NCBI GenBank assembly: GCA_963920635.1
Contig: OY987300.1
Span: forward strand, 62,472,915 to 62,536,914
Length of the DNA stretch: 64,000 nucleotides
Direction: 5' to 3'
Origin: Pseudeuparius sepicola
Lineage: Eukaryota; Arthropoda; Insecta; Coleoptera; Anthribidae
Position numbers and translations under genes: made by a program. This document shows, in pieces, positions 9,801-64,000 of this stretch (within the stretch, counting starts at the first letter, position 1; each line of letters opens with the position of its first letter). The notes beneath the pieces are model-generated. The model searched no databases, had not been told where the DNA came from, and saw only the letters and a program-made list of their open reading frames with translations.

Positions 9801-12701
9801 TAGGGAATTATTAAAACTGGTTTATTAAAATTATAAACGATTTTTTAAATTATGGCCAAATATAAAGTGTGGGCCAACTGGTAAACCAGACACTACCTAC
9901 CTACCTATTACAGTCAAAATAATATTCTCTAGGTTCATACAGTCACATAAGGTAAGAAAATTTACAATGTGCAAGTAGTTACTTAAAACTATTTGAAATA
10001 TTCTGCATTCTGCAAATATTTGGCGCAGCTATTTAAACAGAAAACTTTTAAAAAGCTATAAAAACTAAAGCACTATAATTAAATGTAACTATCAAAACAT
10101 TGAGATTGTACACACAGATTAGCTCCGATGTACCGAATCGAAATATCAAGATATATCCAATGTGACAGACAGACGTCACATCGGAGATATTTCTAGAATG
10201 GGTAATATCAACTACGTTACATAAATGCACATAAGAGATGTTTTTGTCTCATTTGGCAGTACCGCGGCATATTAGAGATGTTAATATCTGGTATAAGTAG
10301 GGGTAAATACTATTATTTCACATTGAGGGTATTCTACATAGACGCGCCATGTTAAAATGAACCTAAATGTGCCAAAACCCGAATTTCGCCCTAATTGTCA
10401 GATTGGAGGTATTACACGCTCGACGAAGATATACCTCTATTATGTGTGTTTTTTAACCCGTAAATAATCTTTTATACCAAGGTATCAGTCTAAGGATTGT
10501 CAGCCGTTTTATGTTAATTTTAAGATCGCTAAGCTTCTTCTCTACTCTAGGTTTAATATATATAGATATATCTAGCTTTTAATCTGTTTCCCTACTTTAC
10601 GCTTGAAAATTAAAGTTAAAATATATTCTAATCATCTATCCACGAACGTTGATTTTTATTTCAATCGTAAATTCGCTTCTTATGTGCTTAACCGTTTTTT
10701 TTGCAACTCTTATGGGTTCAGTTGCTTAAGGGCCTAAACTTAGTATAGAATCAAGATATTGTTTTGTACATTTTAAGCGTGATTTAAAATCCTAATCAAC
10801 TCACACCTTCTCGACTGAGGCTAGTCGCGAGCTAATGCCTATACTTCTTTCTTCAAGGAAAAGAAAACACGTAACAGTACATGTTTTCATTTTTATGCAT
10901 CTGTGTTCCAATAGAATCTCACTCATTCTAAGTATTTCACAACCTTTGAAAAGTAAATAGATAAAATCCAGGTTAGAAAATTAGGTAGATTATTTTCTTA
11001 ATTTTTCATCGATTCTGGTCTGAGAGGAAAAAAAATCACCAATGGCGACGAGTTAATTTACTGGCGATTGTTAAATACTGTGCTGCAACGTAAATGTATT
11101 TTTCCTTTGAGAATTCAACGCCTGCCAATATGAACCAATGAAATGATATGATTTTTGAAATATTAACCAATCAGGTGATGATTTCAGCAATAATACCACT
11201 AGTGGTATTTTCGCTGAAATCCTACTCTTAGTTACGTCCTAGTTACGCTAAACCAATATTGTGGCAGCTAAAACTGATAACCCGATAACTTCTTCACATT
11301 ACCAAAGTTAATACAGGACTATAATATATATTATGCACAAAAAACATATTCAGAACCGAAAGTTCAATCTAAATGACAGCTAGCTGTCAAAGTAACTATT
11401 TGCAGTTGTTAAATTCTCTTTTTAAATACAACTCGTGGTATGCCTAATAATAGATAATACCTTTCCCTTATTTATCACTCATTATAATCCCAATGCTAAG
11501 AAAATACCACTCCTGCTGTGCAGTCGTGGTATTTTCAGCTTTGGGATTATAATTCGTAAAATTAACGAAAGGTATTATCGATAATAGGCACACCACTTGT
11601 TATATTACCCCTGAAAAAGGAGGGCATACGCAATATAAAATATGAGACAAGATAGGTACGAATAATCTCGGACATCATCCAATCGACTTAGTAAACAAGC
11701 CGATTCATCATCCATCGGACGGTAGAAATAAGGTTATGTGTCACGTGACTCAATCCACCAATGAGAGCGCAAGACGTATAGTGACTTTTATATACGTCGG
11801 ACGTATAGCCACTTCCTTAAATTTTACCTGAATATCTCCTGTTGATTGGAATGTTCAAGAAAAAACGTCCCTTCACCAGACTCGCACTTCCTCCCAGCTT
11901 CAAAAGTAAACCTTCCACTTTTGTAACCATATCTGCGAATATAGCAATACGGCCAAGTGAACAGCAACTTATTATTCAACTCATCTCTCAACTGAACAGC
12001 AGTGGATGTCAAAACGAGGGTGTAACTCTTCTCCTCCAGTCCGCATCTCTGAGATGCAGGGGAGCGATGTAGCTTCACATTAAAAATACCTTCCCCGGAT
12101 GAGCAGTATAAGTCGTTATCTTCTTCGATACTTGTTATTCTAGAAACATCATCAGGGAATACAACTGATTGGATGGCTGTCAGCCAATCCTTCATTGACT
12201 GCTCCGTTACAGCACTGAATTGGTAAACGGCAGTTTTTGTGATAATACTGAAATATGCTGGGTTTCTTGTGTGAATCTTAATAACATTTTCTAAGGTTAT
12301 TATTTTAGGTTGGCTAGCTTTGTCCGTACAGTCATATACTTCTATTCTTTGAATTCCAAACTTGCTCGACTTGAATAGTAGGCAATACTTCTGTTGCCAG
12401 GATTTCTAAAAAAATTGTTCAGTATCATACAGTGTTTAATAGTTTTCTCTTCTTGAGTCACGAGATTCTAGACAATTATTATATTTTGAATATTAAAGAT
12501 TGTGCCATTAAGGATGTTAGGATTTGAAATAAATATTATATCTTCTATGCTCAAGACTCTAAACATCACATTTGGCATTAATGCTATATCTAAAAATCGT
12601 TTAATTTGTTTCCGAAAATTATTAGGTACTACCTTTAAAATAATTTTTCCAATTGGAGGTAACAAAAGAAATCCTTTGTACACAGCATCATCAAAATCCA
12701 T
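3890..12701 (-). CDS. Dok: Dok-family docking adaptor (PH + PTB/IRS domains), complete gene
   Basis: Three coding exons on the minus strand, 12701-12633, 12405-11828 and 4739-3890, joined at GT/AG introns of 227 and 7088 bases. Phases match, giving 498 codons and a TAG stop. Exon 1 starts with MDFDDAVYKGFLLLPP, a Dok-like N terminus. Residues about 6-115 form a PH domain (KKSWQQKYCLLF). Residues about 122-220 form an IRS-type PTB domain with WPYCYIRRYG and FTFEAGRKC. The tail has a proline-rich patch (PKPVKPPR, about 297-305) and tyrosine motifs YEPV 326, YDQV 332, YDKL 401, YDEV 437, YALI 456 and YAVI 489, expected SH2-docking sites after phosphorylation. Dok proteins act at the inner plasma membrane, linking receptor and cytoplasmic tyrosine kinases to RasGAP and JNK signalling. 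Length and domain order are normal. The first exon is short, but its ATG and the splice into the PH domain are convincing. Confidence 0.93.
5924..6764. repeat. Foldback element with ~290-bp arms
   Basis: Left arm 5924-6212 and right arm 6473-6764 are near-perfect reverse complements. The outer ends read TTACACAAAACTTTCCCATA. Both arms carry a CTCGACGTTTCGCTCC block. The 260-bp centre has no coding sequence. It is a non-autonomous inverted-repeat element inside the Dok intron. Confidence 0.85.
8899..10430. repeat. Widely spaced inverted repeat, possible TIR element
   Basis: GAGCGTGTAATACCTCCAAT at about 8906-8925 recurs inverted at about 10402-10421, and both copies are bordered by ATCTTCG-like bases. 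This could mark the ends of a 1.5-kb non-autonomous DNA element. No transposase sequence or clear target duplication was found, so two unrelated MITE fragments remain possible. Confidence 0.4.
11118..11604. repeat. Dispersed repeat with an internal long palindrome
   Basis: Arms 11428-11510 and 11521-11604 fold on each other; both contain GATAATACCTTTC and AAAATACCAC blocks. A second dyad centred on ACCACTAGTGGT lies near 11200. The left part matches 49411-49740, and a short tail matches about 52650-52686, so this is a multi-copy family. Confidence 0.6.
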
Positions 12702-33524: not shown

Positions 33525-35770
33525 AGCTTCGCCGCCATTGTCGTTTGTCACGCACATGTCTAATTTTTTTTCGATACCCCGGAGTGTTCTCCACACACCT
33601 GCCAAACGACTTCCCGATCCCAGTCCATTTATGTATTTTCCGAATTACCCCCGCCGCCACTGTCGTTTGTCACGCCCATGTCTAAATTTTTTTCGACACC
33701 CCGGGGTGTCCTCCACGCACCTGCCAAACAACTTCCCGATCCCAGTCCATTGATGTATTTTCCGAATTACCCCCGCCGCCATTGTCGTTTGTCACGCCCA
33801 TATCTAAATTTTTTTTCGACACCCCGGTGTGTCCTCCACACACCTGCCAAACAACTTCCAGATCCCAGTTCATTTATGTATTTTCCGAATTACCCCCGCC
33901 GCCATTGTCGTTTGTCACGCCCATGTCTAAATTTTTTTCGACACCCCGGGGTGTCCTCCACACACCTGCCAAACAACTTCCCGATCCCAGTTCATTTATG
34001 TATTTTCCGAATTACCCCCGCCGCCATTGTCGTTTGTCACGCTCATGTCTAAATTTTTTTCGATACCCCGGGTTGTCCCCCACACACCTGCCAAACAACT
34101 TCCCGATCCCAGTTCATTTTATGTATTTTCCGAATTACCCCCGCCGCCACCGTCGTTTGTCACGCCCATGTCTAAATTGTTATCGACACCCCGGGGTGTC
34201 CTCCAAACACCTGCCAAACAACTTCCCGATCCCAGTTCATTTATGTATTTTCCGAATTACCCCCGCCGCCATTGTCGTTTGAAACGCCCATGTCTAAATT
34301 TTTTTCGATACCCCGGGTTGTCCTCCACACACCTGCCAAACAACTTCCCGATCCCAGTCCATTTATGTATTTTCCGAATTACCCCCGCCGCCACTGTCGT
34401 TTGTCACGCCGATGTCTAAATTTTTTTCTACACCCCGGGGTGTCCTCCACACACCTGCCAAACAACTTCCCGATCCCGGTTCATTTATGTATTTTCTGAA
34501 TTACCCCCGCCGCCATTGTCGTTTGTCACGCCCATATCTAAATTTTTTTTCGACACCCCGGGGTGTCCTCCACACACCTGCCAAACAACTTCCCGATCCC
34601 AGTTCATTTATGTATTTTCCGAATTACCCCCGCCGCCATTGTCGTTTGTCACGCCCATGTCTAAATTTTTTTCGACACCCCGCGGTGTCCTCCACACACC
34701 TGCCAAACAACTTCCCGATCCCGGTTCATTTATGTATTTTCCGAATTACCCCCGCCGCCACCGTCGTTTGTCACGCCCATGTCTAAATTTTTTTCGACAC
34801 CCCGGGGTGTTCTCCGCACACCTGCCAAACAACTTCCCGATCCCAGTTCATTTATGTATTTTCCGAATTACCCCAGCCGTCATTGTCGTTTGTCACGCCC
34901 ATGTCTACATTTTTTTCGACACCCCGTGGTGTCCTCCACACACCTGCCAAACAACTTCCCGATCCCAGTTCATTTATGTATTTTCCGAATTACCCCCGCC
35001 GCCATTGTCGTTTGTCACGCCCATGTCTAAATTTTTTTCGACACCCCGGGGTGTCCTCCACACACCTGCCAAACAACTTCCCGATCCCAGTTCATTTATG
35101 TATTTTCCGAATTACCCCCGCCGCCATTGTCGTTTGTCACGCCCATGTCTAAATTTTTTTCGACACCCCGGGGTGTCCTCCACACAACTGCCAAACAACT
35201 TCCCGATCCCAGTTCATTTATGTATTTTCCGAATTACCCCCGCCGCCACCGTCGTTTGTCACGCTCATGTCTAAATTGTTATCGACACCCCGGGGTGTTC
35301 TCCGCACACCTGCCAAACAACTTCCCGATCCCAGTTCATTTATGTATTTTCCGAATTACCCCCGCCGCCATTGTCGTTTGTCACGCCCATGTCTAAATTT
35401 TTTTCGACACCCCGGGTTGTCCTCCACACACCTGCCAAACAACTTCCCGATCCCAGTTCATTTATGTATTTTCCGAATTACCCTCGCCGCCACCGTCGTT
35501 TGTCACGCCCATGTCTAAATTTTTTTCGACACCCCGGGGTGTTCTCCACACACCTGCCAAACAACTTCCTGATCCCCATTTATGTATTTTCCGAATTACC
35601 CCCGCCGCCATTGTCGTTTGTCACGCCCATGTCTACATTTTTTTCGACACCCCGTGGTGTCCTCCACACACCTGCCAAATAACTTCCCGATCCCAGTTAG
35701 TTTATGTATTTTCCGAATTACCCCCGCCGCCACCGTCGTTTGTCACGCCCATGTCTAAATTGCTATCGAC
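33525..35770. repeat. 122-bp satellite array, about 18 monomers
   Basis: GCCGCCATTGTCGTTTGTCA recurs every 122 bases (33531, 33653, 33775, then 33898 with one extra T). Each canonical monomer contains the perfect palindrome GACACCCCGGGGTGTC and a CCAAACAACTTCCCGATCCC block. Because 122 is not a multiple of 3 and the monomer has no plus-strand stop, overlapping frames of up to 252 codons arise. These are not genes. Monomers differ by a few substitutions, and one near 35570 has a short deletion. Confidence 0.95.
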
Positions 35771-36463: not shown

Positions 36464-39400
36464 ATGAAGCTTAAACTAAACTCTTATATGAAGGTATGAG
36501 AGAAGTTGTGGATTTTTTTTTTAAATTTTAATGAAATTTTATTTTTCCAGACAGTCTTCGAAACACCGCCACCTAGTGCAAACAATGTTGAGGAGGAGAG
36601 TGAACCATGGGGCCAGTTTATGATAACAGATAATGATGGTAGTCCTAATAGGTCAGTAAGAATGTAAAACCTCTGCTAAAACATACCCAAGACATGATTT
36701 TTCTCTATTTCATTCAGATGGGGCCAAAAAAACAGATGGTGCCGGCCGTCCTGCATACCCATATCAATAATTTGTATACTGATCTTCCTTGTTGTACTTT
36801 TACCTCTGTTAGACCATGCTGCTGAGAGAGCATTATTAGAACTAAACACGCCTGACAATATTTGCAATACATGCAGGTAAATCTAATTTACTAATGGATG
36901 AGAAACGAGTATAATAAAATAACCCTAATTTATTTCAGCTTATCATTAGTAGAGAGTATTCCCGAAGGTTTAATTTACGATAATGATTCCGTAAAGTTTC
37001 CTACCACTTTTTATACTTGGTTAGATTTAATAGATTGTGCTACTGAGTCAATAGAGATAGCGTCCTTATATTGGACTCTTAGACAATCCGAAGTATATCC
37101 AGATCCATCTTCCATTCAGGTAATAAAAAGGTACCTTATATAACTTGATTTTTTAATTATTTCATTGATGTTTTTAGGGTGAATTAATTTTTCAAGCTCT
37201 CTTAAAATCAGGCACAGAAAGAGGAGTAAAAATTAGGGTAGCACAAAATTATCCAAGCCAAAATTTCCCCAATGTAGATACTGAAGTACTGGTTAAGCGA
37301 AAGGCAGCCGAAGTTAGGAGTGTCAACTTTGCGAAACTGTTAGGAAGTGGGGTTTTGCATACAAAATTATGGATAATTGATCGAAAACACTTATACATTG
37401 GTAGTGCTAACATGGATTGGAGAGCTCTTACCCAAGTGAGATTTTCGGTTTTTCTTATTATTATTTTTTTAAAATTCTTTTAAATGCATAAAATTTAATT
37501 TATTGTTTATGGAAAACCTCTGTTTTACATAGTACCTATAGTTGCACTTCTTTTGCCCATATTTTCCTTATATTTAAATCGTATCGAGGCCATTTTACCA
37601 CAACCTGGATAATAACACGATCTTTAATAAATCAATATTATGTTTCCGTGTTTCACAGTTCTTCGTTGATTGCCTCTCTATCGTTCTCCCTATATTCCTT
37701 GCTTTTCTGTTTTAGATTCAGGAGATGGGTATCGTTATCAAAAACTGTTCGTGCCTCGCAATGGACGCTGCGAAAATATTTGACGTAAGATATTATCTCT
37801 TCCCAAAGCATTAAAAATAATAGCGGCATTTATTTTTAGATTTATTGGACTCTAGGTGTCGAGGACGCGAAAATTCCACCTTCTTGGCCAAGCATATTGG
37901 CGACAAAATACAATATGGACACACCACTGAACTTGACCTATGGAAATGAGACTTTTCAAACATACCTCACTGTAAGTGGACCCAATATATATATCATTTG
38001 CAAAATTTACACCAAATTGATGAAATTCAGATTTGTGATACTAATATACGGTGTAAACTTTGAGAATAGAAAGAAACATAAAAGGTTGTCCTTAATTTAC
38101 TACCAAATGTAATCGATTCCATTAATAAGTTGTCCAGGCACATATAAATATTTTTTTCTACAATATACGAATAAATACGTTCTGTAATAACACAAAAATT
38201 CAAATAGAAAGGACAGCGCCACATGTGATGTTAGTCAGAACGATGCCCTTGAGAGTGGCCTATCCTAATGTTATATTTATTTAATCTGTGAGAGTTACTG
38301 TTACTGGCATTATGGGGCTTATGTTCTCACGATAATAAGATACGAATCGGAGAGTCATCCTGATTCCTTCATATGGAAAAGTAAGTCTTCATTTATTCGA
38401 AAACTATGGGTTTTGGTATGATTCTATTCAGGCTGCCATGTGTTTTAAAATGAAGTTTAAAATATAAAATTCGTCGGAAACCATAGACATAGCATTAGCA
38501 TGGGTCAAAAAGGCTATTATTGTCATGTGAACATGTATTCTATTAAATAACTTTTCCATGTTTCTGAATAGGTACCTATATGATAAGTATGCAAGTTCTT
38601 GCTATAAAACTGCTGAAGAAAAGATGGCATACTGTTTGCGTACATGCTCAAGTACCGTTTACATTGAATGTTATTTAATAATTTACAAGATTTATTCAAA
38701 TCGATTCTTGATTTATAACTTAGTTTTCATTCATCGTCATGCTTATAATGAGAAAGTGGCTGTAACACGCTGCATGTTCTATGTTTATGTTAATGAATTT
38801 TTTGCAGAGTTCTCCACCTCCCTTCAGTCCACAAGGCCGTACAAATGACATTGATGCATTAATTAACGTAATAAAGCATGCAGAAAAATTCGTGTATATA
38901 GCGGTGATGGATTACTTCCCACTGATGATTTATACGCCGAAATTGAAATTTTGGCCGGTGATAGATGATGCGCTGAAAGCCGCCGCCATAGAACAAAAAG
39001 TGAAAGTGAAACTGTTGATCAGCAAGTGGAATCACTCTCGGGAGTCTGAGGATAATTTCTTGAAATCGCTCACAAGCGTTAATAAGGCATATCGAGGAGT
39101 TTCTATTGAAGTGGTAAGTGCAATGTTTTTCTTTATATCACCCCCCTCTTAAATGTTATTGAGATGAAAGCAAATTTTTTAAAGGATCATTTGGTAGCTG
39201 TAGCCTTTTAGGTGATACCTGCAACAAAAATTCTACAAATAAGTTCTAACTTCAATGATCAAAATGTCTTTCCCTATATTTTGTATTGAAAAGTGTTGTT
39301 TGAAGTTTGTAGATGAGGTAGGTAGTTGTCATACTGCCATTGTCTTGATTTATTTTATTTAAACACGACGTTTCAATAAGTACAAATCTATGATCGTTTT

Positions 39401-42400
39401 CAAGTAAATATGATCTTTTCTTTATCTATATAATTTATGATCATTTTCACTCGAAAACTATAATAGATTTGTCGTGTTTAAATAAAATAAATCAAGACAA
39501 AGGAAGTCCGACAACAGATTTTTACTCATTAATGAAAGCAACCTAATATATTTGTCCTTTAAAAACCGATGTTGTAAAAAATGTGTTAAATTTTAAGTAC
39601 CGATTTAATAGCCGCTATTGCAAAGTTGGGACGCTATATATACTCTCTTTTTCACAGCCATAGATTTTCACAAGCAACTTGAATGAGAGAACAAAATTAG
39701 ATTTCTTCTTTGACTTATGAAATAAGCAAATGTCATTCCTAAGGTGTCCCGATTATAACATACAATGGGTATTTTATTATTTTTTGTTATCAGCTTAGAC
39801 GCTAAATAATGACAAAAAAGAAACATCATGGCATATCTAAGAAAAAATCTATCAATTTTTTATTTTTCTAAATTGGACTCTATGGCCATTCAAAAAAGTT
39901 CTATCATTTTTCAAAGTTTGACAGTACCAATGTAGGATTTTGTAAAAAAAGTTCTAGCATTTTTCAAAGTTTTACCGACTTTGGCAGTACCGATGTAGGA
40001 TTTTGTATACAGATGTAACACAAATTTTGGTGCAACTAATTGTTTTTGCTTCAAAAAGGATGTCAAATTACGTGCTCAAAAGCAATCGCGTGATTTTATT
40101 CATGTGTCAGATTTGTCATTTTTTGAAAAAAATTGTTAAAAATCGCATTATTTCTCAAAATCTCGAAAAATATTGTATAGAAAAGTTGTTCATATTTCAA
40201 TTTTATACTGCTACAGCAGATTTCAGACCTCTAGTTCTGACTCTTCAGTCTATCTTTACTGTCTACCTGTAGTTTCATTATTAGCTTTCGTTTTAAACCC
40301 ACTTTTTTTTACGAAAAATGGAAAGTCCCATCTGAAAATTGGTCCAATTTGATGCAAAGTGTATGTACTTTCAATAGTTTTCCCCGAAGGAAAGTTACGC
40401 TATGCGGACAGAAGTGCCAGATAATGTATAGTTACCATTTTTTCCTTGGAGGGGTACTGGGGTAGTTTTTATCCAACAAATGTTTTCAATAACAAATTCG
40501 TGCATCTGGAATCATTAGGAATGTCCTTGTTAAAAATGGACAGTGAGGTTATATTTTTTCTTCAAGGAGTGCTGGGGGTAGTTTCTCCCAACAAATTTTT
40601 GCAACAACAAATTCGTACGTCTGGAATCATTAGGAACGTGCTTGCTAAAAACGAGGAATGAAGTTACCATTTTTTTTCCTTAAATTGGTGCTGGGGGTTA
40701 GTTTTCGCCCAACAAATTTTCTTAACCATGCAACATGTATGCACTTAGTCCCAAAATTAAATAGTAAAACTGATAAAATTGTCAACATTAACACCCTGTT
40801 CATATCTTTTATATTGAAGAAATATTTAGTGTAGGTACCTAAGTGTGTAATAATTAATAAATATGACTCAAATATATTTGTAATATTTCCCTATATTTTA
40901 GTGAGATAATTATTGGCCCTGGAACACGCTGTATAACTGAATACAGTTCGTGCACTCTAATCTGAATCTGACACGCGAAAAACCTCAGTCTAAGCGCCAG
41001 CGATCCATAAGCAGCTTATTGTGCGTCGCTTAGACTGAGGTTCTCGCGTGTCAACTTAGAGTGCACGGACTGTATATGTCGTACGACTTATACAAACGCG
41101 CAGCAAATAAATACATGTTTGTCGTTTTCCTCGATATGTTCCCACGCCTCAAGCATTATTTCGTATAGTTCAAGGTCTTCTGGCTGGAAACAGAGTTGGG
41201 CAGATCTATATCTAAGGTCTTTGAAGGGGTCTAAGATCGTAATAACGATCTAGATCTTTCCCAAATAAGATCTTTTAAGAATTCGGCTTCGATTCATTGG
41301 AGGGAGAAACGAATTGTGCAGTGGTAGGGCGCCAGCCTATTCTCCATAGGTATATCAAACGATTGATTACGTAACCAGTTCGGTTAGGAAAGTAACTTTA
41401 CGTAAAATTTTACTTTTCAGAACTAGTTAAGCAAAATTGGACGTATCATCACAATTTGCTCCGGTTTTGAAAGATATCACTTTCTACTAAAAGTATGTCA
41501 AAATTAGGAAACTATTATAATTTATATTATGAATTTTTAGATGTAATATTTTAAAAGACCTTAGATCGTTTACAAGATCGTAAATCATTCAGTAGATCTT
41601 AGATCGTTTAGAAGATCTCAGATCGTTAGAAGATCTTAGATCGTTAGAAGATCTTAGATCGTTTACAAGATCGTAAATCATTCAGTAGATCTTAGATCGT
41701 TTAGAAGATCTCAGATCGTTAGAAGATCTTAGATCGTTTAGAAGATCTTAGATCGTTTAGAAGATCTTAGATCGTTTAAAAGATCAAAGATCGAATGATC
41801 TTTTTTAAACAGATCGTTTTTAGACGATCTTTAATCTAAGATCGTTTTTGTATGAGAAGATCTATTTTTAAACGATATTAGATCTTTTTTAAAAAATGAT
41901 CTGATCTATGATCTAGATCTTTTTTGACGCGATCTTTCCCAGCTCTGGCTGGAAATAGATTTCGATGACCGGAAGGCGCCACCAGCGCAGTCAGCGTTTG
42001 TCAAAACTATATTCCTAAACCACCGGCAACACTGTTAAGCTTCTTCAGCTGACTGCTGGTGCCTCTAGCGGTGACTTAGCAGAGGGCATTTCAGGGTATT
42101 AAAAATCGAATGATTCTGTATCCGAAGGCCTTCTGTTAGGCCAAGGCAAAACCAAGTTTCGGTATGCTATACATATTTTATGAGTTCAATGCTACTGGCA
42201 CTTCTGTCAGTGTAGCTTATATTTTCTATGGTTTTCTCCAAAACTCCCTTTATTTCAATATTTCACGAAGTAAAAAGACCCACGATTACACTCATTACAA
42301 AAGATAGGATAAAAACATCCACCATTACTTTTTAAAAAATATTTTTTAATAATGAATATACCTAGATCTTTATTCCAATAGCGACTGAGGGCCATCTACA

Positions 42401-44931
42401 AGTGGGTAGTGGGTTTAAAATGGCATTTAATAATGTAAATGCATATACATACATACATACATAGGTAGTAAAATTGGATGATTTAATGTAGGTTTACGGA
42501 GATTAATTTAAATGAAAAACTCAGAAAATCGTTTATTTAAATAAAATCACTGTTTTTTATTTTTTTATTTTGTTCTTAGTGCACGGTAAGTATACATTTT
42601 CATTGTCAACAAACATGTCATTCTTTGTACTATTTTAATGTCATCTAGGAAGGTACCAGGGCTCTCATAAAATAAACTGGACTGCTTTTCCAATACAATC
42701 ATTTTTCCCACCTATATAGATATAAATGTGACACCGAAAGGTCGGCCATATTGGGCGCACACATCATTGGCTGTCAAATGTCAAATGCACGAGGGCCGTG
42801 GTTGGCCGTTGTCAAATAATGTCATTTAGTGTTGCCACCACAAATTTCGCTTTTCCCCTAGAATGCACTCTGAATCCCCTAGAATGCACACAATATGGCG
42901 GATATTCACGCGGGTGCCAGCGCCCTCTGCCGGATGGCTAAAAATTGGTGGAGGGACTAGGGCCCAATGGCGGTCCAGTTATTTTACGAGGGCCGTTGAA
43001 GGTACCTATTTCATGAATTTGAGTATTATAAAATTAAAATAAAATAGAATTCACAAAAAAGCCATTCTTAGGATACTGTGGGTCGACCGGCATGTTTATG
43101 CAAAAAAATTCCTGTGGCAACAAAGAAGTAGAAAGAGCAGATAAATGGAAATTTAACAAGTGTTTTTTGAATTATGTTAATAGATGTCTATTATTTATTT
43201 ACAGAACACAAAATTAAAGGCGGGAGGCTAGAAAAGGCCCTGGTGCGGGTGTCCTTAGCATTTGAGAGTGCCAGATTTTTCACTTGCGCCTTGTCTGTTC
43301 TCTGCTTGTACTTCAGAATGATACAGGGTCAGGCTCAGAAACTTTGAGTATTTAATATAAGTTTATTTCATTCAAGCGAATTTGATATTTGATATTACAT
43401 ATCAAAATATTGTAATCCGAATATTGTATCCGAGCCAATAACCTAATAGCAGGTTTAGAATGTACCATATCGTCATCATATAACTCTTCGAAATTCCTTA
43501 CTCCGGTCCTGAATAGCTCTCTGAAAGCAAAATGAAATGCGCATGTACCATACCTGCCAGTGACCTACATCAGAGCCCTATGGAAATGGGTCACCGAACT
43601 GTTTACTTTAACATTTGACCTCCATTCTCCCCCCTCTAATTCTGTAGTCTAGAAGAAAATAAAGTTATATCTCAGTTTTACATAAAAAACATCATGCAAC
43701 TGATGTAAATTTTTTTTGGTTTCTTGTTTTGTAATTAAAAATGGTTGACTAAGTTATTTATTTTTCTTTCAATACATTTTGTAAAACTATCACACATTTT
43801 GGTTTAAATTGATATTGGATTTTTTTGTAGGTTATGTTTATGTATTTTTAGGTATATTATATTTTCGTTTTTAAAATATAACTTGATTTTCTGTATTTAT
43901 ATGCCGAATATGGACGAGTTGACGAGTTTACCATTTTGGCTGACGAAAAAATAAACCGACGCAACACCTAACAAAAATTTTGAGGTTAAGAGTTTCAGAG
44001 TATCAAAGACAGTTGAAATGATAAAAAATAATAGAAGTATGATAAGTCCCCTATCAAGAAAATCTAGTAAAAAAGAAATCGCTGCCGAACCGAGGGCAGC
44101 GCTAACTAGCGCTATCTGTCATTTCTGTCCGTTCAATGTACATTGACGTAAAGCGCTGGCAGCGATTACAATTTTGGGGGCACATTGAACGAAACCAATT
44201 AAAAAAAAAAAACAGTTGATTTAAATCGGCTCAATCCTGGAAATACCTGTGTTTAGGAAAAAAAAGTATTTTCTAGAGGTCTGAAATCTCTTCTAGCGGA
44301 ATAAAATTGAAAGACTAACAACTTTCTATACAACATTTCTGTAAATTTTGAGAAATAATGAAATTTTCGGTGATTTTTTCAAAAAATACAAAATTTTACA
44401 GATAAAAAATGACCTGCTTGGTTTTGAGCACATCATTTACTTAAATTGCATAACAAACAAATTTCCGATATTATCATGATGCGGACTTTATGTGTGACAC
44501 TGTAAATTGCTAAACTCATATGCTCCATTATGTGGCTTTGAAAGAAGATAAGAACAAAGAAAAATTCTTTGTAAATCAGAAATACACAAGGACAATATAG
44601 AAAATATGTTTGTTTCTGCTCTATAAAAGTTGATGATTGGCCCAATGTGCATTTATTACAGAGGCGTTTCATTGTGCCAGCCGACAAAGACCAAGAGAAA
44701 ATCCCATTCGCGAGGGTGAACCACAACAAGTACATGGTGACGGACAACACGGCCTTCATAGGCACATCTAATTGGTCTGGGGATTATTTCACTGACACTG
44801 CAGGGGTGTCGTTTGTCTTGCACGACCCTGTCTTTGACAGGAACGAGACACACACGACCATCCGCAGCCAGTTGCAGGCCGTGTTTGAAAGGAACTGGTT
44901 TTCAAATTACTCTGTCCCGTTCGATTTCTGA
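36464..44931 (+). CDS. PLD3: PLD3/PLD4-like HKD-family protein, complete gene
   Basis: Nine exons: 36464-36493, 36551-36651, 36718-36876, 36939-37119, 37178-37435, 37716-37784, 37840-37971, 38808-39113, 44662-44931. All borders are GT/AG and phases agree, giving 501 codons. This is a type II membrane protein: a cytoplasmic N terminus, one hydrophobic segment at about residues 57-76, then a lumenal domain with two HKD motifs, HTKLWIIDRKHLYIGSANMD (His218, Lys220, Asp225) and HNKYMVTDNTAFIGTSNWSG (His433, Lys435, Asp440). All catalytic residues are present. Length matches vertebrate PLD3 (about 490 aa). Family members act in the endolysosome as 5'-3' exonucleases on single-stranded nucleic acid and in lipid transphosphatidylation. 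The first exon codes for only 10 residues and is followed by a 57-base intron, so an alternative upstream start is possible. Confidence 0.94.
39345..39502. repeat. Small inverted-repeat element in PLD intron 8
   Basis: TTGTCTTGATTTATTTTATT and its reverse complement bound about 155 bases, and the arms extend through TTAAACACGACG. Non-coding. Confidence 0.6.
39514..40433. other. PLD intron 8, no gene
   Basis: Contains a segment (about 40140-40240) whose reverse complement occurs at 22550-22650 and 44275-44365, a dispersed repeat with the core TTTCTAGAGGTCTGAAATC. No coding sequence. Confidence 0.5.
40434..40735. repeat. Tandem repeat, ~117-bp unit, 2.5 copies
   Basis: CTGGGGGTAGTTT...CCAACAAAT occurs at about 40455, 40570 and 40690, with the intervening TCTGGAATCATTAGGAA block conserved in two copies. 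Inside PLD intron 8. Confidence 0.65.
40944..41072. mobile_element. TA-flanked hairpin MITE, 129 bp
   Basis: CAGTTCGTGCACTCTAA and the reverse of CAGTCCGTGCACTCTAA form the ends. Inner arms with CCTCAGTCTAAGCG pair as well, so nearly the whole element folds. It is bordered by TA on both sides, fitting the Tc1/mariner superfamily. Confidence 0.75.
41191..41947. mobile_element. Non-autonomous hAT element packed with GATCTTAGATCG repeats
   Basis: Starts CAGAGTTGGGCAGATC and ends with the complement of CAGAGCTGGGAAAGATC. A perfect 8-bp target duplication, GCTGGAAA, lies at 41183-41190 and 41948-41955. The interior, mostly 41560-41870, is a run of AGATCTTAGATCGTTTAGA units on both strands. Repeats of short motifs next to the TIRs are typical transposase-binding sites in hAT elements. 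No transposase. Confidence 0.85.
42440..42466. repeat. (CATA)n microsatellite
   Basis: A short run of ATACATACATACATACATA within PLD intron 8. Confidence 0.7.
42658..42997. mobile_element. Mutator-like MITE, copy 2, with 9-bp target duplication
   Basis: The 340-bp element ends with AGGGCTCTCATAAAATAAAC and (reversed) AACGGCCCTCGTAAAATAAC. It is flanked by GAAGGTACC at 42649-42657 and 42998-43006. A 9-bp duplication is the Mutator (MULE) hallmark. The body matches the copy at 26254-26584. No coding sequence. Confidence 0.8.
43007..44661. other. 3' part of PLD intron 8, no gene
   Basis: Apart from a dispersed-repeat piece at 44275-44365, nothing recognisable. It ends with the acceptor TTTATTACAG before the last PLD exon. 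Confidence 0.5.
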
Positions 44932-49410: not shown

Positions 49411-49740
49411 GGAATTCAACACTTGCCAATATGAACCGATAAAATGACACGATTTTTAAAATATTACACAATCAGGTGGCGATTTCAGTGATAACACCAC
49501 GAGTGTGGTATTTTCGCTGAAATAATTCTCTCTTAGTAACGCCTTAGTTACATGTTACACTAAACCAATATTGTGGCAGGTAAAACTGATCTGTAACCCG
49601 ATAACTTCTTCACAGTATAAAATTTAATATAGGACTAGAAGACAGCTTCAGTTAACACATTGATAATATCTTTTAACACAATAAACATATTCGAAACTGA
49701 AGGCTCATCCTAAATGACAGCTATCAAATAGACTTCAACT
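49411..49740. repeat. Second copy of the 11.1-kb repeat family (5' part)
   Basis: Matches 11110-11390 with scattered differences (shared CACTTGCCAATATGAACC-like and ACTAAACCAATATTGTGGCA blocks). A short further match resumes near 52650, after the inserted TIR element and the tRNA-like sequence. Confidence 0.6.
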
Positions 49741-49975
49741 TTATGGTAATTAAATTAAAGCTGGATTTATAGATTGACGTAACGTAACAGAAATACAACT
49801 GTACCAAATTTCGATAATGTACCTAGTATAAAGTAGAAGTTGCAGTCAATATTCAATTTTAAACAGCAAACCTGGATGTATCTAAGAAACTAAAGACGAT
49901 CAACACATGGACAATAAGAATTTTATTTTTTGAAGTTCTGTATGCTCCAGAAGGTATACCAGGTATTTCTGAAAC

Positions 49976-49979
<4 letters not shown>

Positions 49980-50034
<55 letters not shown>
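49980..50034. repeat. (TA)n microsatellite, left border of the array
   Basis: About 27 TA units. A shorter (TA)n tract at 52010-52040 borders the other side of the array. Confidence 0.95.
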
Positions 50035-50037
<3 letters not shown>

Positions 50038-50089
50038 AAAAGGTGATAATGGGCAAACACTCAAAGTTAACAAAAAGAAAAAACTAGTA

Positions 50090-50134
50090 ACCGCATACAC
50101 GTGTTTCATGCTATTTGGCAATCATCAGTACGGT
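50090..50134 (-). ncRNA. Type I hammerhead ribozyme, copy 1
   Basis: Reading the minus strand: stem I strand ACCGTA, CTGATGA core (50128-50122), stem II TGC/GCA closed by loop CAAATA, GAAA (50107-50104), stem III ACAC/GTGT without extra loop, unpaired A17 (50096), then TGCGGT pairing back with ACCGTA (one G-U). Predicted cleavage is between 50096 and 50095. The CAAATA loop and loopless stem III are the arrangement known from schistosome and other animal hammerheads. Confidence 0.88.
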
Positions 50135-50415
50135 GTAACATTAACCAAATCAAAAGATAGGCATGATTTGGGAAGCAACAAGTGAAGTCCAGGCAGGAGC
50201 CAACAGCACATTTGCAGCTTCAGTCAGCGCATCCCCTATTTTGGGGCTTGTACTAACATCGCCACGGAGGCTGCTAAAGCGACCTGCGTGGAAATCTTCA
50301 TAACCCAAGATACAATGACAATAAGGATGTAAGATTAGCGAGTGTAAATGTAACAATTACAAGAAAAGGTGATAATGGGCAAACACTCAAAGTTAACAAA
50401 AAGAAAAAACTAGTA

Positions 50416-50460
50416 ACCGCATACACGTGTTTCATGCTATTTGGCAATCATCAGTACGGT
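50416..50460 (-). ncRNA. Type I hammerhead ribozyme, copy 2
   Basis: Identical to copy 1, shifted by 326 bases; all core and stem residues are conserved. Predicted cleavage between 50422 and 50421. Confidence 0.88.
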
Positions 50461-50741
50461 GTAACATTAACCAAATCAAAAGATAGGCATGATTTGGGAA
50501 GCAACAAGTGAAGTCCAGGCAGGAGCCAACAGCACATTTGCAGCTTCAGTCAGCGCATCCCCTATTTTGGGGCTTGTACTAACATCGCCACGGAGGCTGC
50601 TAAAGCGACCTGCGTGGAAATCTTCATAACCCAAGATACAATGACAATAAGGATGTAAGATTAGCGAGTGTAAATGTAACAATTACAAGAAAAGGTGATA
50701 ATGGGCAAACACTCAAAGTTAACAAAAAGAAAAAACTAGTA

Positions 50742-50786
50742 ACCGCATACACGTGTTTCATGCTATTTGGCAATCATCAGTACGGT
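50742..50786 (-). ncRNA. Type I hammerhead ribozyme, copy 3
   Basis: Identical core and stems, predicted cleavage between 50748 and 50747. Together with the neighbours, cleavage would release unit-length 326-nt RNA. Confidence 0.88.
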
Positions 50787-51067
50787 GTAACATTAACCAA
50801 ATCAAAAGATAGGCATGATTTGGGAAGCAACAAGTGAAGTCCAGGCAGGAGCCAACAGCACATTTGCAGCTTCAGTCAGCGCATCCCCTATTTTGGGGCT
50901 TGTACTAACATCGCCACGGAGGCTGCTAAAGCGACCTGCGTGGAAATCTTCATAACCCAAGATACAATGACAATAAGGATGTAAGATTAGCGAGTGTAAA
51001 TGTAACAATTACAAGAAAAGGTGATAATGGGCAAACACTCAAAGTTAACAAAAAGAAAAAACTACTA

Positions 51068-51112
51068 ACCGCATACACGTGTTTCATGCTATTTGGCAAT
51101 CATCAGTACGGT
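51068..51112 (-). ncRNA. Type I hammerhead ribozyme, copy 4
   Basis: Core identical. One substitution just outside (CTACTAAC instead of CTAGTAAC, 51064) lies in the outer stem I region. Predicted cleavage between 51074 and 51073. Confidence 0.86.
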
Positions 51113-51616
51113 GTAACATTAACCAAATCAAAAGATAGGCATGATTTGGGAAGCAACAAGTGAAGTCCAGGCAGGAGCCAACAGCACATTTGCAGCTTCA
51201 GTCAGCGCATCCCCTATTTTGGGGCTTGTACTAACATCGCCACGGAGGCTGCTAAAGCGACCTGCGTGGAAATCTTCATAACCCAAGATACAATGACAAT
51301 AAGGATGTAAGATTAGCGAGTGAGTGTAAATGTAACAATTACAAGAAAAGGTGATAATGGGCAAACACTCAAAGTTAACAAAAAGAAAAAACTAGTAACC
51401 GCATACACGTGTTTCATGTTTCATCCTTATTGTCATTGTATCTTGGGTTATGAAGATTTCCACGCAGGTCGCTTTAGCAGCCTCCGTGGCGATGTTAGTA
51501 CAAGCCCCAAAATAGGGGATGCGCTGACTGAAGCTGCAAATGTGCTGTTGGCTCCTGCCTGGACTTCACTTGTTGCTTCCCAAATCATGCCTATCTTTTG
51601 ATTTGGTTAATGTTAC

Positions 51617-51661
51617 ACCGTACTGATGATTGCCAAATAGCATGAAACACGTGTATGCGGT
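51617..51661 (+). ncRNA. Type I hammerhead ribozyme, inverted copy 5
   Basis: Same structure on the plus strand: ACCGTA 51617-51622, CTGATGA 51623-51629, loop CAAATA, GAAA 51644-51647, ACACGTGT, A17 at 51655, TGCGGT 51656-51661. Predicted cleavage after 51655. Confidence 0.88.
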
Positions 51662-51871
51662 TACTAGTTTTTTCTTTTTGTTAACTTTGAGTGTTTGCCC
51701 ATTATCACCTTTTCTTGTAATTGTTACATTTACACTCGCTAATCTTACATCCTTATTGTCATTGTCATTGGGGATGCGCTGACTGAAGCTGCAAATGTGC
51801 TGTTGGCTCCTGCCTGGACTTCACTTGTTGCTTCCCAAATCATGCCTATCTTTTGATTTGGTTAATGTTAC

Positions 51872-51916
51872 ACCGTACTGATGATTGCCAAATAGCATGA
51901 AACACGCGTATGCGGT
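51872..51916 (+). ncRNA. Hammerhead ribozyme with altered stem III, inverted copy 6
   Basis: As copy 5, but stem III reads ACACGCGT, which replaces an A-T pair with an A-C mismatch. All catalytic-core bases remain. Activity may be lowered. The monomer also lacks about 80 bases elsewhere. Confidence 0.8.
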
Positions 51917-52005
51917 TACTAGTTTTTTCTTTTTGTTAACTTTGAGTGTTTGCCCATTATCACCTTTTCTTGTAATTGTTACATTTACACTCGCTAATCT
52001 TACAT

Positions 52006-52044
<39 letters not shown>

Positions 52045-52462
52045 AAGATTTTTGTGTTCCAAGAGCAGTGAATTAGACTAAACTTATTTGTATTAATATT
52101 TCATGTAGGTATGATTAAAAAATTTGAAAAATTAATGTGTTTTACTAAATGCTAACTCTTCTTTTCGTTAAATAAATAATATGCCTACTTAATATTGCGC
52201 CTGGAAAACACTTTGGTAAACTTTGGTTTACTAGGTACACAAAAATATAATATTCCTATTATACAGCGTGATCAGTTAAGGGTGGCCCTCGGCCATTTCT
52301 CGGGAACTATGCAAGTTAGAAATATTATTGGTCGAACGTAATAACGTAACGTAAGAAGTTAAAAGTTGACGAACTTCTTACGGAAACGTTACGTTATGGC
52401 TTACGTTACGTCAATCTATAAATCCAGCTTTAAGGGCCGCTAGTTAAGAAATTTTATATGAA

Positions 52463-52533
52463 AGCACAATGGTCTAGCGACATGATTCTCGTTTTGGGTG
52501 CAAGAGGTCCCGGGTTCAAATCCCGGTTGTGAC
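52463..52533 (+). tRNA. tRNA-Pro(TGG)-like sequence, probably a pseudogene
   Basis: A-box-like TGGTCTAGCGACATGATTC, anticodon loop TTTTGGGT with TGG, and a perfect T arm (CCCGGGTTCAAATCCCGG) are present, followed by a T7 pol III terminator at about 52538. The acceptor stem pairs at only 5 of 7 positions and the anticodon stem has a C-A mismatch. It is therefore probably a decayed gene or the head of a SINE. Confidence 0.6.
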
Positions 52534-52686
52534 TACTTTTTTTATTTTTAAGTCATATTTTCGAAGAGGCAACATATTTATAATTTTTGTAGTTAATTTA
52601 TTTAATAAGTTTGGTTGTCAAATTATGCCTAAACACTGAATAATTAAATTTGCAGTTGTTAAATTCTCTTCCTAAATACAACTCGT

Positions 52687-54933: not shown

Positions 54934-63498
<8,565 letters not shown>

Positions 63499-64000
63499 CT
63501 TGGATATAGAAAAATTGAACAGTCATCAAAAACAGTTTCGTGGCATTTTTCTTTAGAGATAATTTTCATGTCTCTACTAATAACATAAATAATTTGAAAG
63601 TAGCAGAACTTTTTGCAATTATTGTGCTTTAGTCTTTACTCCTATGACAACAAGCTGTTGTACTTAAATTGCAAAACCATGGAGCTAACATAATGTACAA
63701 CATGGCACAAAAAATATCTTGTTTTACAGTGGGATGTCAGAATTTTTTCGTCTGTTGAAAAGTTTACAAGTGGGAAATTCATTATGAATCGGTATACAGG
63801 GTGATTCACCTAAAGGCATATAATAAAATTTTCACTTACTGCTTTCAAATGTTACCTCGAATGTTACAGATCAACTGTCCATTGAAAATGAAGAAAAAAA
63901 TGCCAAATGAACATTGGTCGAAACAAATTCGTTTTCTTGAAATAGGGTGTCCAAATTGTGTCTAGTTTCAATCCCTTCCATTTTGAAAGTGAGCATTTTT
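63499..64000. other. SMC3 intron upstream of the hinge exon, with repeat edge
   Basis: Starts with the acceptor ATATCCAAG next to 63498. From about 63793 (TACAGGGTGATTC) it enters another copy of the CAGGGTG Tc1/mariner-type repeat, truncated by the window edge. No further SMC3 exon seen. Confidence 0.6.

Follow-up and report, generated by a model that had tools for sequence, protein, structure and literature searches.

What is the 326-bp repeat array at positions 50032-52011 of this window (the whole 64-kb stretch of DNA that was analysed), and how could an element that appears to encode nothing have been copied there? We consider it probable that a metazoan non-LTR retrozyme has inserted here, a non-coding RNA of 326 nt that carries a type I hammerhead and was copied by Penelope machinery.

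Layout of the array and its surroundings

Unit positions (u) are counted on the hammerhead-sense strand, with u1 immediately 3' of the predicted cleavage point in GUGUA^UGCGG. The array comprises 4.25 units followed by ~1.8 units in inverted orientation, with (TA)n on both sides. The left arm (50032-51418), delimited by repeat and alignment, has the retrozyme sense on the minus strand and runs from u64 at its outer end to u312 at its inner end. The right arm (51416-52011, 596 bp) has the retrozyme sense on the plus strand and runs from u87 at its inner end to u101 at its outer end, skipping from u110 to u183 at 51765/51767. The arms thus lie head-to-head, and their alignment ends overlap by 3 nt (ATG) at the inner junction, 51416-51418. 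The target is represented by a (TA)28 microsatellite on the left (49980-50035) and a (TA)16.5 microsatellite on the right (52009-52041), both detected by TRF, and the first letters of the left arm, TATA, are also part of the left (TA)n. The initial annotation had described a tandem array at 50035-52010; the 326-bp repeat array is confirmed, but it is not purely tandem, since the second arm is inverted. In addition, no stop-to-stop open reading frame (ORF) of at least 110 aa was found inside the array, in agreement with the earlier proposal of an element without a protein of its own. The GC content of 50001-52000 was 0.402.

The (TA)n tracts and the array are bracketed by perfect 33-nt inverted arms with TTAA at the start, at 49755-49787 (plus strand) and 52401-52433 (minus strand), which are 100% complementary to each other. 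These arms possibly belong to a TTAA-type DNA transposon or MITE hosting the array. About 30 bp outside one of them, ARAGORN reported a tRNA-Pro (TGG) at 52462-52536, with a weak Rfam tRNA match of 33.4 bits. Copies of a dispersed repeat lie at 11190-11457 and 49490-49723; the latter is seemingly split by the block ~49724-52647, and another copy elsewhere in the genome (C1_781769) took a retrozyme insertion.

As for the other features of the window, TRF detected a 122-bp tandem repeat at 33530-35761 (18.3 copies, 93% matches) and 13 copies of the 19-bp unit TTTAGAAGATCTTAGATCG at 41550-41793. The segment 34001-36000 had a GC content of 0.493 and a GC skew of -0.353, unlike its surroundings. 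Exons of an SMC3-like SMC gene occupy 54934-63635 on the minus strand, including an SMC3 exon at 57389-58456. This exon most resembled environmental sequences (up to 85% identity); arthropods predominated among the matches with a species name, which included a moth (Ostrinia, 69% over 79% of the query), a firefly (Photinus, 80% over 50%) and a weevil (Sitophilus, 81% over 37%), pointing to an insect host, perhaps a beetle. PLD-like pieces were seen at 38766-39152 and 44575-44931, and a protein with PH and IRS-type PTB domains at 11824-12405.

Hammerhead cores in the repeat units

Six hammerhead cores were found in the array, each with the order CTGATGA, CAAATA, GAAA, stem III, A17 and a 6-bp stem I; the topology is type I, with a hammerhead in every unit. 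Four lie on the minus strand: 50073-50144 (C3 at 50128, predicted cleavage 50096/50095), 50399-50470 (C3 at 50454, cleavage 50422/50421), 50725-50796 (C3 at 50780, cleavage 50748/50747) and 51068-51112 (C3 at 51106, cleavage 51074/51073). The other two lie on the plus strand, at 51607-51678 (C3 at 51623, predicted cleavage 51655/51656) and 51862-51933 (C3 at 51878). The stem II base is a U-U mismatch. Stem III is the palindrome ACACGTGT, which can form either 2 bp with a 4-nt loop or a loop-less stem in a dimer, and the last unit has ACACGCGT as its stem III sequence. The annotation had assigned a complete type I hammerhead to every full monomer; the six cores bear out the assignment, while "complete" is generous for structures with a U-U mismatch, a 2-bp palindromic stem III and the ACACGCGT variant.

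At the Rfam gathering thresholds, no hammerhead was reported. In permissive mode, Hammerhead_HH9 matched four units, including that at 50073-50144, at 27.1 bits (E 5.2e-4, against a threshold of 52 bits) and a fifth, at 51862-51933, at 24.9 bits, and Hammerhead_1 matched the sixth, at 51068-51112, at 26.5 bits (E 1.2e-3, against 34 bits). The covariance-model check named in the annotation therefore yielded matches only below the gathering thresholds. The shortness of stem III and the basal U-U mismatch of stem II may account for these low scores. Our sequence descriptor, which recovered all six cores, found 0 further ones elsewhere in the 64-kb window and 0 matches among 20,000 shuffled units; shuffling the other 62 kb 100 times gave 1 match over both strands. 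The minimum-free-energy fold of an isolated 53-nt stretch did not recover the hammerhead (z 0.20), the circular fold of the unit had a z of -1.1, and a scan of IMG/VR for the core returned 0 matches. Judging from the sequence of the cores, transcripts of the array would self-cleave into 326-nt units that could circularise.

Dispersed copies and their insertion ends

Throughout the 769-Mb assembly of 16 contigs, the core pattern with up to 2 mismatches occurred 5,137 times (2,497 plus, 2,640 minus), and the reversed pattern had 0 matches in the same genome. A first DNA search gave at least 110 matches, spread over nine contigs in at least ~35 places by hand count. Over 35 loci, comparison with the reference unit gave 32 differences at 1,696 positions (1.9%) for the hammerhead segment u288-u10, versus 5.5% for the whole unit. 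This was the 6th lowest value of 326 equal-length windows along the unit, all lower ones also overlapping the hammerhead, and the lowest hammerhead-free window stood at 3.6% (35 loci). When differences were counted per copy, where related copies are not independent, u288-u10 ranked 13th and the best hammerhead-free window was at 2.6%. The hammerhead core is thus among the least diverged parts of the unit.

We next considered the insertion sites. Among loci at least 98% identical, 15 of 19 adjoin (TA)5 or longer, compared with 0.5% of random place pairs in the window. Outside (TA)n, the script found shared edges of at least 7 bp at 10 of 35 loci (retrozyme and Penelope together, L009 omitted), versus 2% of mismatched pairs. 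For the retrozyme by itself, the corresponding figure was 4 of 27 loci (14, 12, 11 and 7 bp), the other 23 being below 7 bp by script; at L019 and L041, a duplication was recognised by eye and not by script. Furthermore, another member of the repeat family that harbours the C1_781769 insertion (C1_1857934:3086-2894) lacks it and carries one copy of the duplicated stretch, and so represents an empty site. The many core matches, the low divergence of the core, the duplications at some loci and the empty site lead us to regard the element as a mobile retrozyme, and the small retroelement lacking a protein that had been proposed from the window gains support from these other loci.

The shape of the insertions was then examined in 47 clusters, which comprised loci L009-L042, six consecutive stretches of contig C1 and the window itself. 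Note that the first 34 loci were chosen for similarity to the window, that L001-L008 were left out since they overlap later stretches, and that clusters shorter than 80 bp were dropped. Twenty-eight clusters were minus-plus, one was minus-plus-minus, one minus-plus-minus-plus, 10 minus only and 7 plus only, and plus-minus clusters were not seen (0 of 47). Outer 3' ends (RNA sense, n = 76) fell at u57-72 in 31 cases and at u97-112 in 22, with 23 elsewhere; the array of C1_1758464, split in two by the alignment, adds one false 5' end and one false 3' end to these counts, both "elsewhere", and the u65 end of L009, which coincides with the limit of the stretch, may be spurious. Within these two ranges, which take in 53 of the 76 ends, the favoured places are u64-67 and u101-102, ~37 nt apart, so that head-to-head retrozyme arms have two end positions separated by 30-40 bp. 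On the other hand, only 1 of 18 outer 5' ends lay inside u57-72 or u97-112. Twenty further short stretches were sited to capture ends expected near u64-u101, a choice that would miss ends elsewhere; of the 21 ends sought in them, 11 fell in the second range and 4 in the first, with 1 at u96, 2 elsewhere and 3 not seen.

The two places tend to be used together. Inverted loci with both ends in these ranges had one end of each kind in 14 cases, versus 2 with the same site twice (permutation p 0.007). Adding later and eye-read loci gave ~19 versus 7 (one-sided binomial by hand ~0.014), a count made up of the 14 to 2, 5 later mixed pairs, 3 same-site pairs from a list able to show only same-site pairs, and L017 and L036, re-sorted by eye as same-site pairs. 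One-of-each pairing is accordingly a bias and not a rule. Inner junctions often overlap by 1-3 nt, and several contain filler of 1-80 nt. At four places on C1 (~9.398, 15.694, 24.115 and 51.389 Mb), the ends of a plus arm and a minus arm face each other across ~30-200 bp of TA-rich DNA; these are perhaps neighbouring insertions, maybe within one microsatellite.

These observations bear on two other explanations. The array could be plain satellite DNA, expanding by unequal crossing-over, with the hammerhead as an idle relic. Long homogeneous arrays do exist, as in the variant array L009 (C1:3142600-3147100), where 12 complete 299-bp units lacking 27 nt (u167-193) are 0-4 differences apart, and three-unit blocks recur in L010 and partly in L013. 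However, the insertions are dispersed over nine contigs, some with duplications and one with an empty site, the hammerhead has diverged little, and crossing-over does not predict head-to-head arms whose outer 3' ends favour two places. A simple satellite was rejected on the empty site, the favoured ends and the dispersal, and we regard this explanation as highly improbable. Alternatively, the same element could be copied by a LINE-type reverse transcriptase instead of Penelope machinery. Target-primed copying and variable 5' ends are usual in LINEs, and the twin-priming model for LINEs also yields inversions. Against this stand the two internal start regions ~37 nt apart, the lack of plus-minus clusters among the 47, and the similar end positions of elements of the same genome that encode a reverse transcriptase (RT) and a GIY-YIG endonuclease, so that copying by a LINE enzyme appears improbable.

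Candidate helpers and the form of the template

The retrozyme array contains no ORF with RT and GIY-YIG, and such ORFs are present elsewhere in the genome. A GIY-YIG search yielded 1,366 first-look candidates, of which 150 were scored, with 132 matches. In one family, Penelope A, locus L073 is a tandem unit with a period of 3,136 that encodes an intact protein of 816 aa combining RVT_1 and GIY-YIG domains. The ends of Penelope A lie at -30 to -32 relative to the ORF on one side and at -61 to -68 on the other, with one of each in 5 of 5 loci; measured from a hammerhead site recognised by eye, they lie 97-99 and 61-68 nt after it in all 5 inverted loci. In Penelope B (3 loci), the ends lie 66 and 97 nt after the by-eye hammerhead site, with 2 loci one-of-each and 1 long-long. 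Note that these loci (5 A, 3 B) were selected as minus-plus GIY-YIG pairs, so that their inversion is a choice and not a result, and only the end positions are informative. The Penelope hammerheads have one extra nucleotide in the core, and Rfam gave no hammerhead match in L073 up to E 5. Shared edges of at least 7 bp were present at 6 of 8 Penelope loci: those of Penelope A measured 12-17 bp in 5 of 5 loci, some including element letters, and those of Penelope B were 13, 0 and 2 bp by script. A (TA)n location was found for 0 of the 8 loci.

The Penelope ends thus stand at about the same distances from the hammerhead site as those of the retrozyme (~64-67 and 101-102). No DNA similarity between the retrozyme and Penelope A was found. 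A tail motif shared with Penelope looked promising by eye and was rejected on a shuffle test, as the retrozyme tail was not significantly similar to either of two Penelope tails (p 0.98 and 0.18). The link between the two is therefore matched hammerhead-to-end geometry, not sequence similarity; the retrozyme shares no tail sequence with the two Penelope families compared, so that neither is singled out as the helper. The head-to-head inversion, the two favoured 3' ends and the Penelope-like geometry are points beyond the initial annotation.

The arms also carry information on the template. Of 53 arms from the two start sites, 49 cross the cleavage site and 31 are longer than one unit, indicating that the template is not usually a cleaved monomer in linear form; the crossing is compatible with circles or multimers. 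Eight of the 53 arms have 5' ends at u1-u10, a weak excess because two of the eight (the window and C1_1758464) are alignment cut-offs. At a spacing of three units, L010 shows 0 and 2 differences, against 4-10 between adjacent units; for L013, the values are 18, 0, 0 and 5 at that spacing and 3-23 between adjacent units. This three-unit period fits, in part, a three-unit circle copied repeatedly, or a later block duplication, and was not seen in C1_973763, C1_1758464, L009 or the window.

A variant that is compatible with a Penelope helper holds that the template is the uncleaved multimeric transcript and that the hammerhead acts at another step. In its favour, hammerhead mutants of Penelope RNA insert unchanged in vitro and unprocessed RNA is the dominant substrate, according to passages of PMC11167929; moreover, neighbouring units can differ, as in L010 and L013, and successive units of L021 share changes in runs. 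On the other hand, published animal retrozymes build up as circles, as described in parts of PMC7229834, and the four complete units of C1_973763 have at most 1 difference, as copying of a single circle would give. We consider this variant rather unlikely.

Returning to a retrozyme copied by Penelope machinery, we propose the following cycle. Transcripts of the array would cut themselves at GUGUA^UGCGG, the dimer probably being the more active form, and the RNA would be ligated to a circle or kept as a multimer, most templates being continuous across the cleavage site. A Penelope-like RT/GIY-YIG endonuclease would make staggered cuts, ~10-15 nt apart, in the two strands of AT-rich DNA, as the duplications suggest. 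Each 3' DNA end would then prime inside the RNA, mostly at u64-67 or u101-102, the observed junction positions, one site per side being the commoner arrangement. The reverse transcriptases could travel round the circle or along the multimer to give up to several units per arm, and the two cDNA 3' ends may join, often via a few shared letters as at the inner junctions, to form the head-to-head array. We infer both the identity of the helper and the order of these steps.

Relation to known retrozymes and Penelope-like elements

Metazoan non-LTR retrozymes are described in parts of PMC7229834 (Cervera and de la Pena 2020) as ~170-400-nt units in dimers to multimers, with low GC, no protein and, when present, duplications longer than 4 bp. 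The window array shares with them the type I hammerhead per unit, the unit size range, the low GC and the lack of a protein. Unlike the tandem copies portrayed there, those of this genome are head-to-head with two favoured 3' ends, and the young ones lie mostly at (TA)n. In the axolotl hammerhead HHR_Amex2, which cleaves more efficiently as a dimer, helix II has a U-U mismatch at its base and helix III consists of 2 bp capped by a tetraloop (PMC7229834, in part); the window hammerhead resembles it in both respects. Plant LTR retrozymes (PMC4918200) have type III hammerheads, LTRs and 600-800-nt circles, as given in PMC7229834. The window element is, like them, a non-coding hammerhead retroelement with proposed mobility through RNA circles, and differs from them in its type I hammerhead and 326-nt unit.

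Penelope has been named a strong candidate helper of animal retrozymes in a portion of PMC7229834, and retrozyme repeats have no conserved motif telling the helper according to an excerpt of PMC7761336. Among the open-licence papers surveyed, we saw none describing where retrozymes end, retrozyme arrays with inverted arms or a common hammerhead-to-start distance. According to parts of PMC11167929, a Penelope protein, once purified, initiates synthesis at a pair of neighbouring positions within the RNA, and the distance between them matches a genomic "tail" of 30-40 bp; the protein also cleaves and extends both strands and favours AT-rich DNA. The Penelope hammerhead studied there needed added protein for its cleavage, and mutating its core left insertion in vitro unchanged. 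Penelope-like elements are, in the corresponding parts of PMC3846280, mostly head-to-head, with a 31-bp tail optional at one inverted pseudo-LTR and duplications of 8-10 bp. As far as these portions of the two papers go, the retrozyme matches such elements in its head-to-head arms, ~30-40 bp tail, short duplications, AT-rich targets and hammerhead in the repeated part. It differs in having no ORF, RT or GIY-YIG and in a hammerhead longer than the minimal Penelope type.

We tentatively extend this comparison to animal retrozymes in general, at a confidence a little below even: they may be Penelope satellites, whose hammerhead would precede two internal start sites by a fixed ~65 and ~100 nt, and in which one circle, perhaps of three units, is primed from both sides of a double-strand break and copied repeatedly by the Penelope enzyme pair. 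The helper enzyme of animal retrozymes is treated as an open question in the parts of PMC7229834 and PMC7761336 concerned with it. Here, retrozyme insertion junctions resemble Penelope junctions in a genome with intact candidate helpers, which makes the question directly testable with one protein, one RNA and two predicted start sites.
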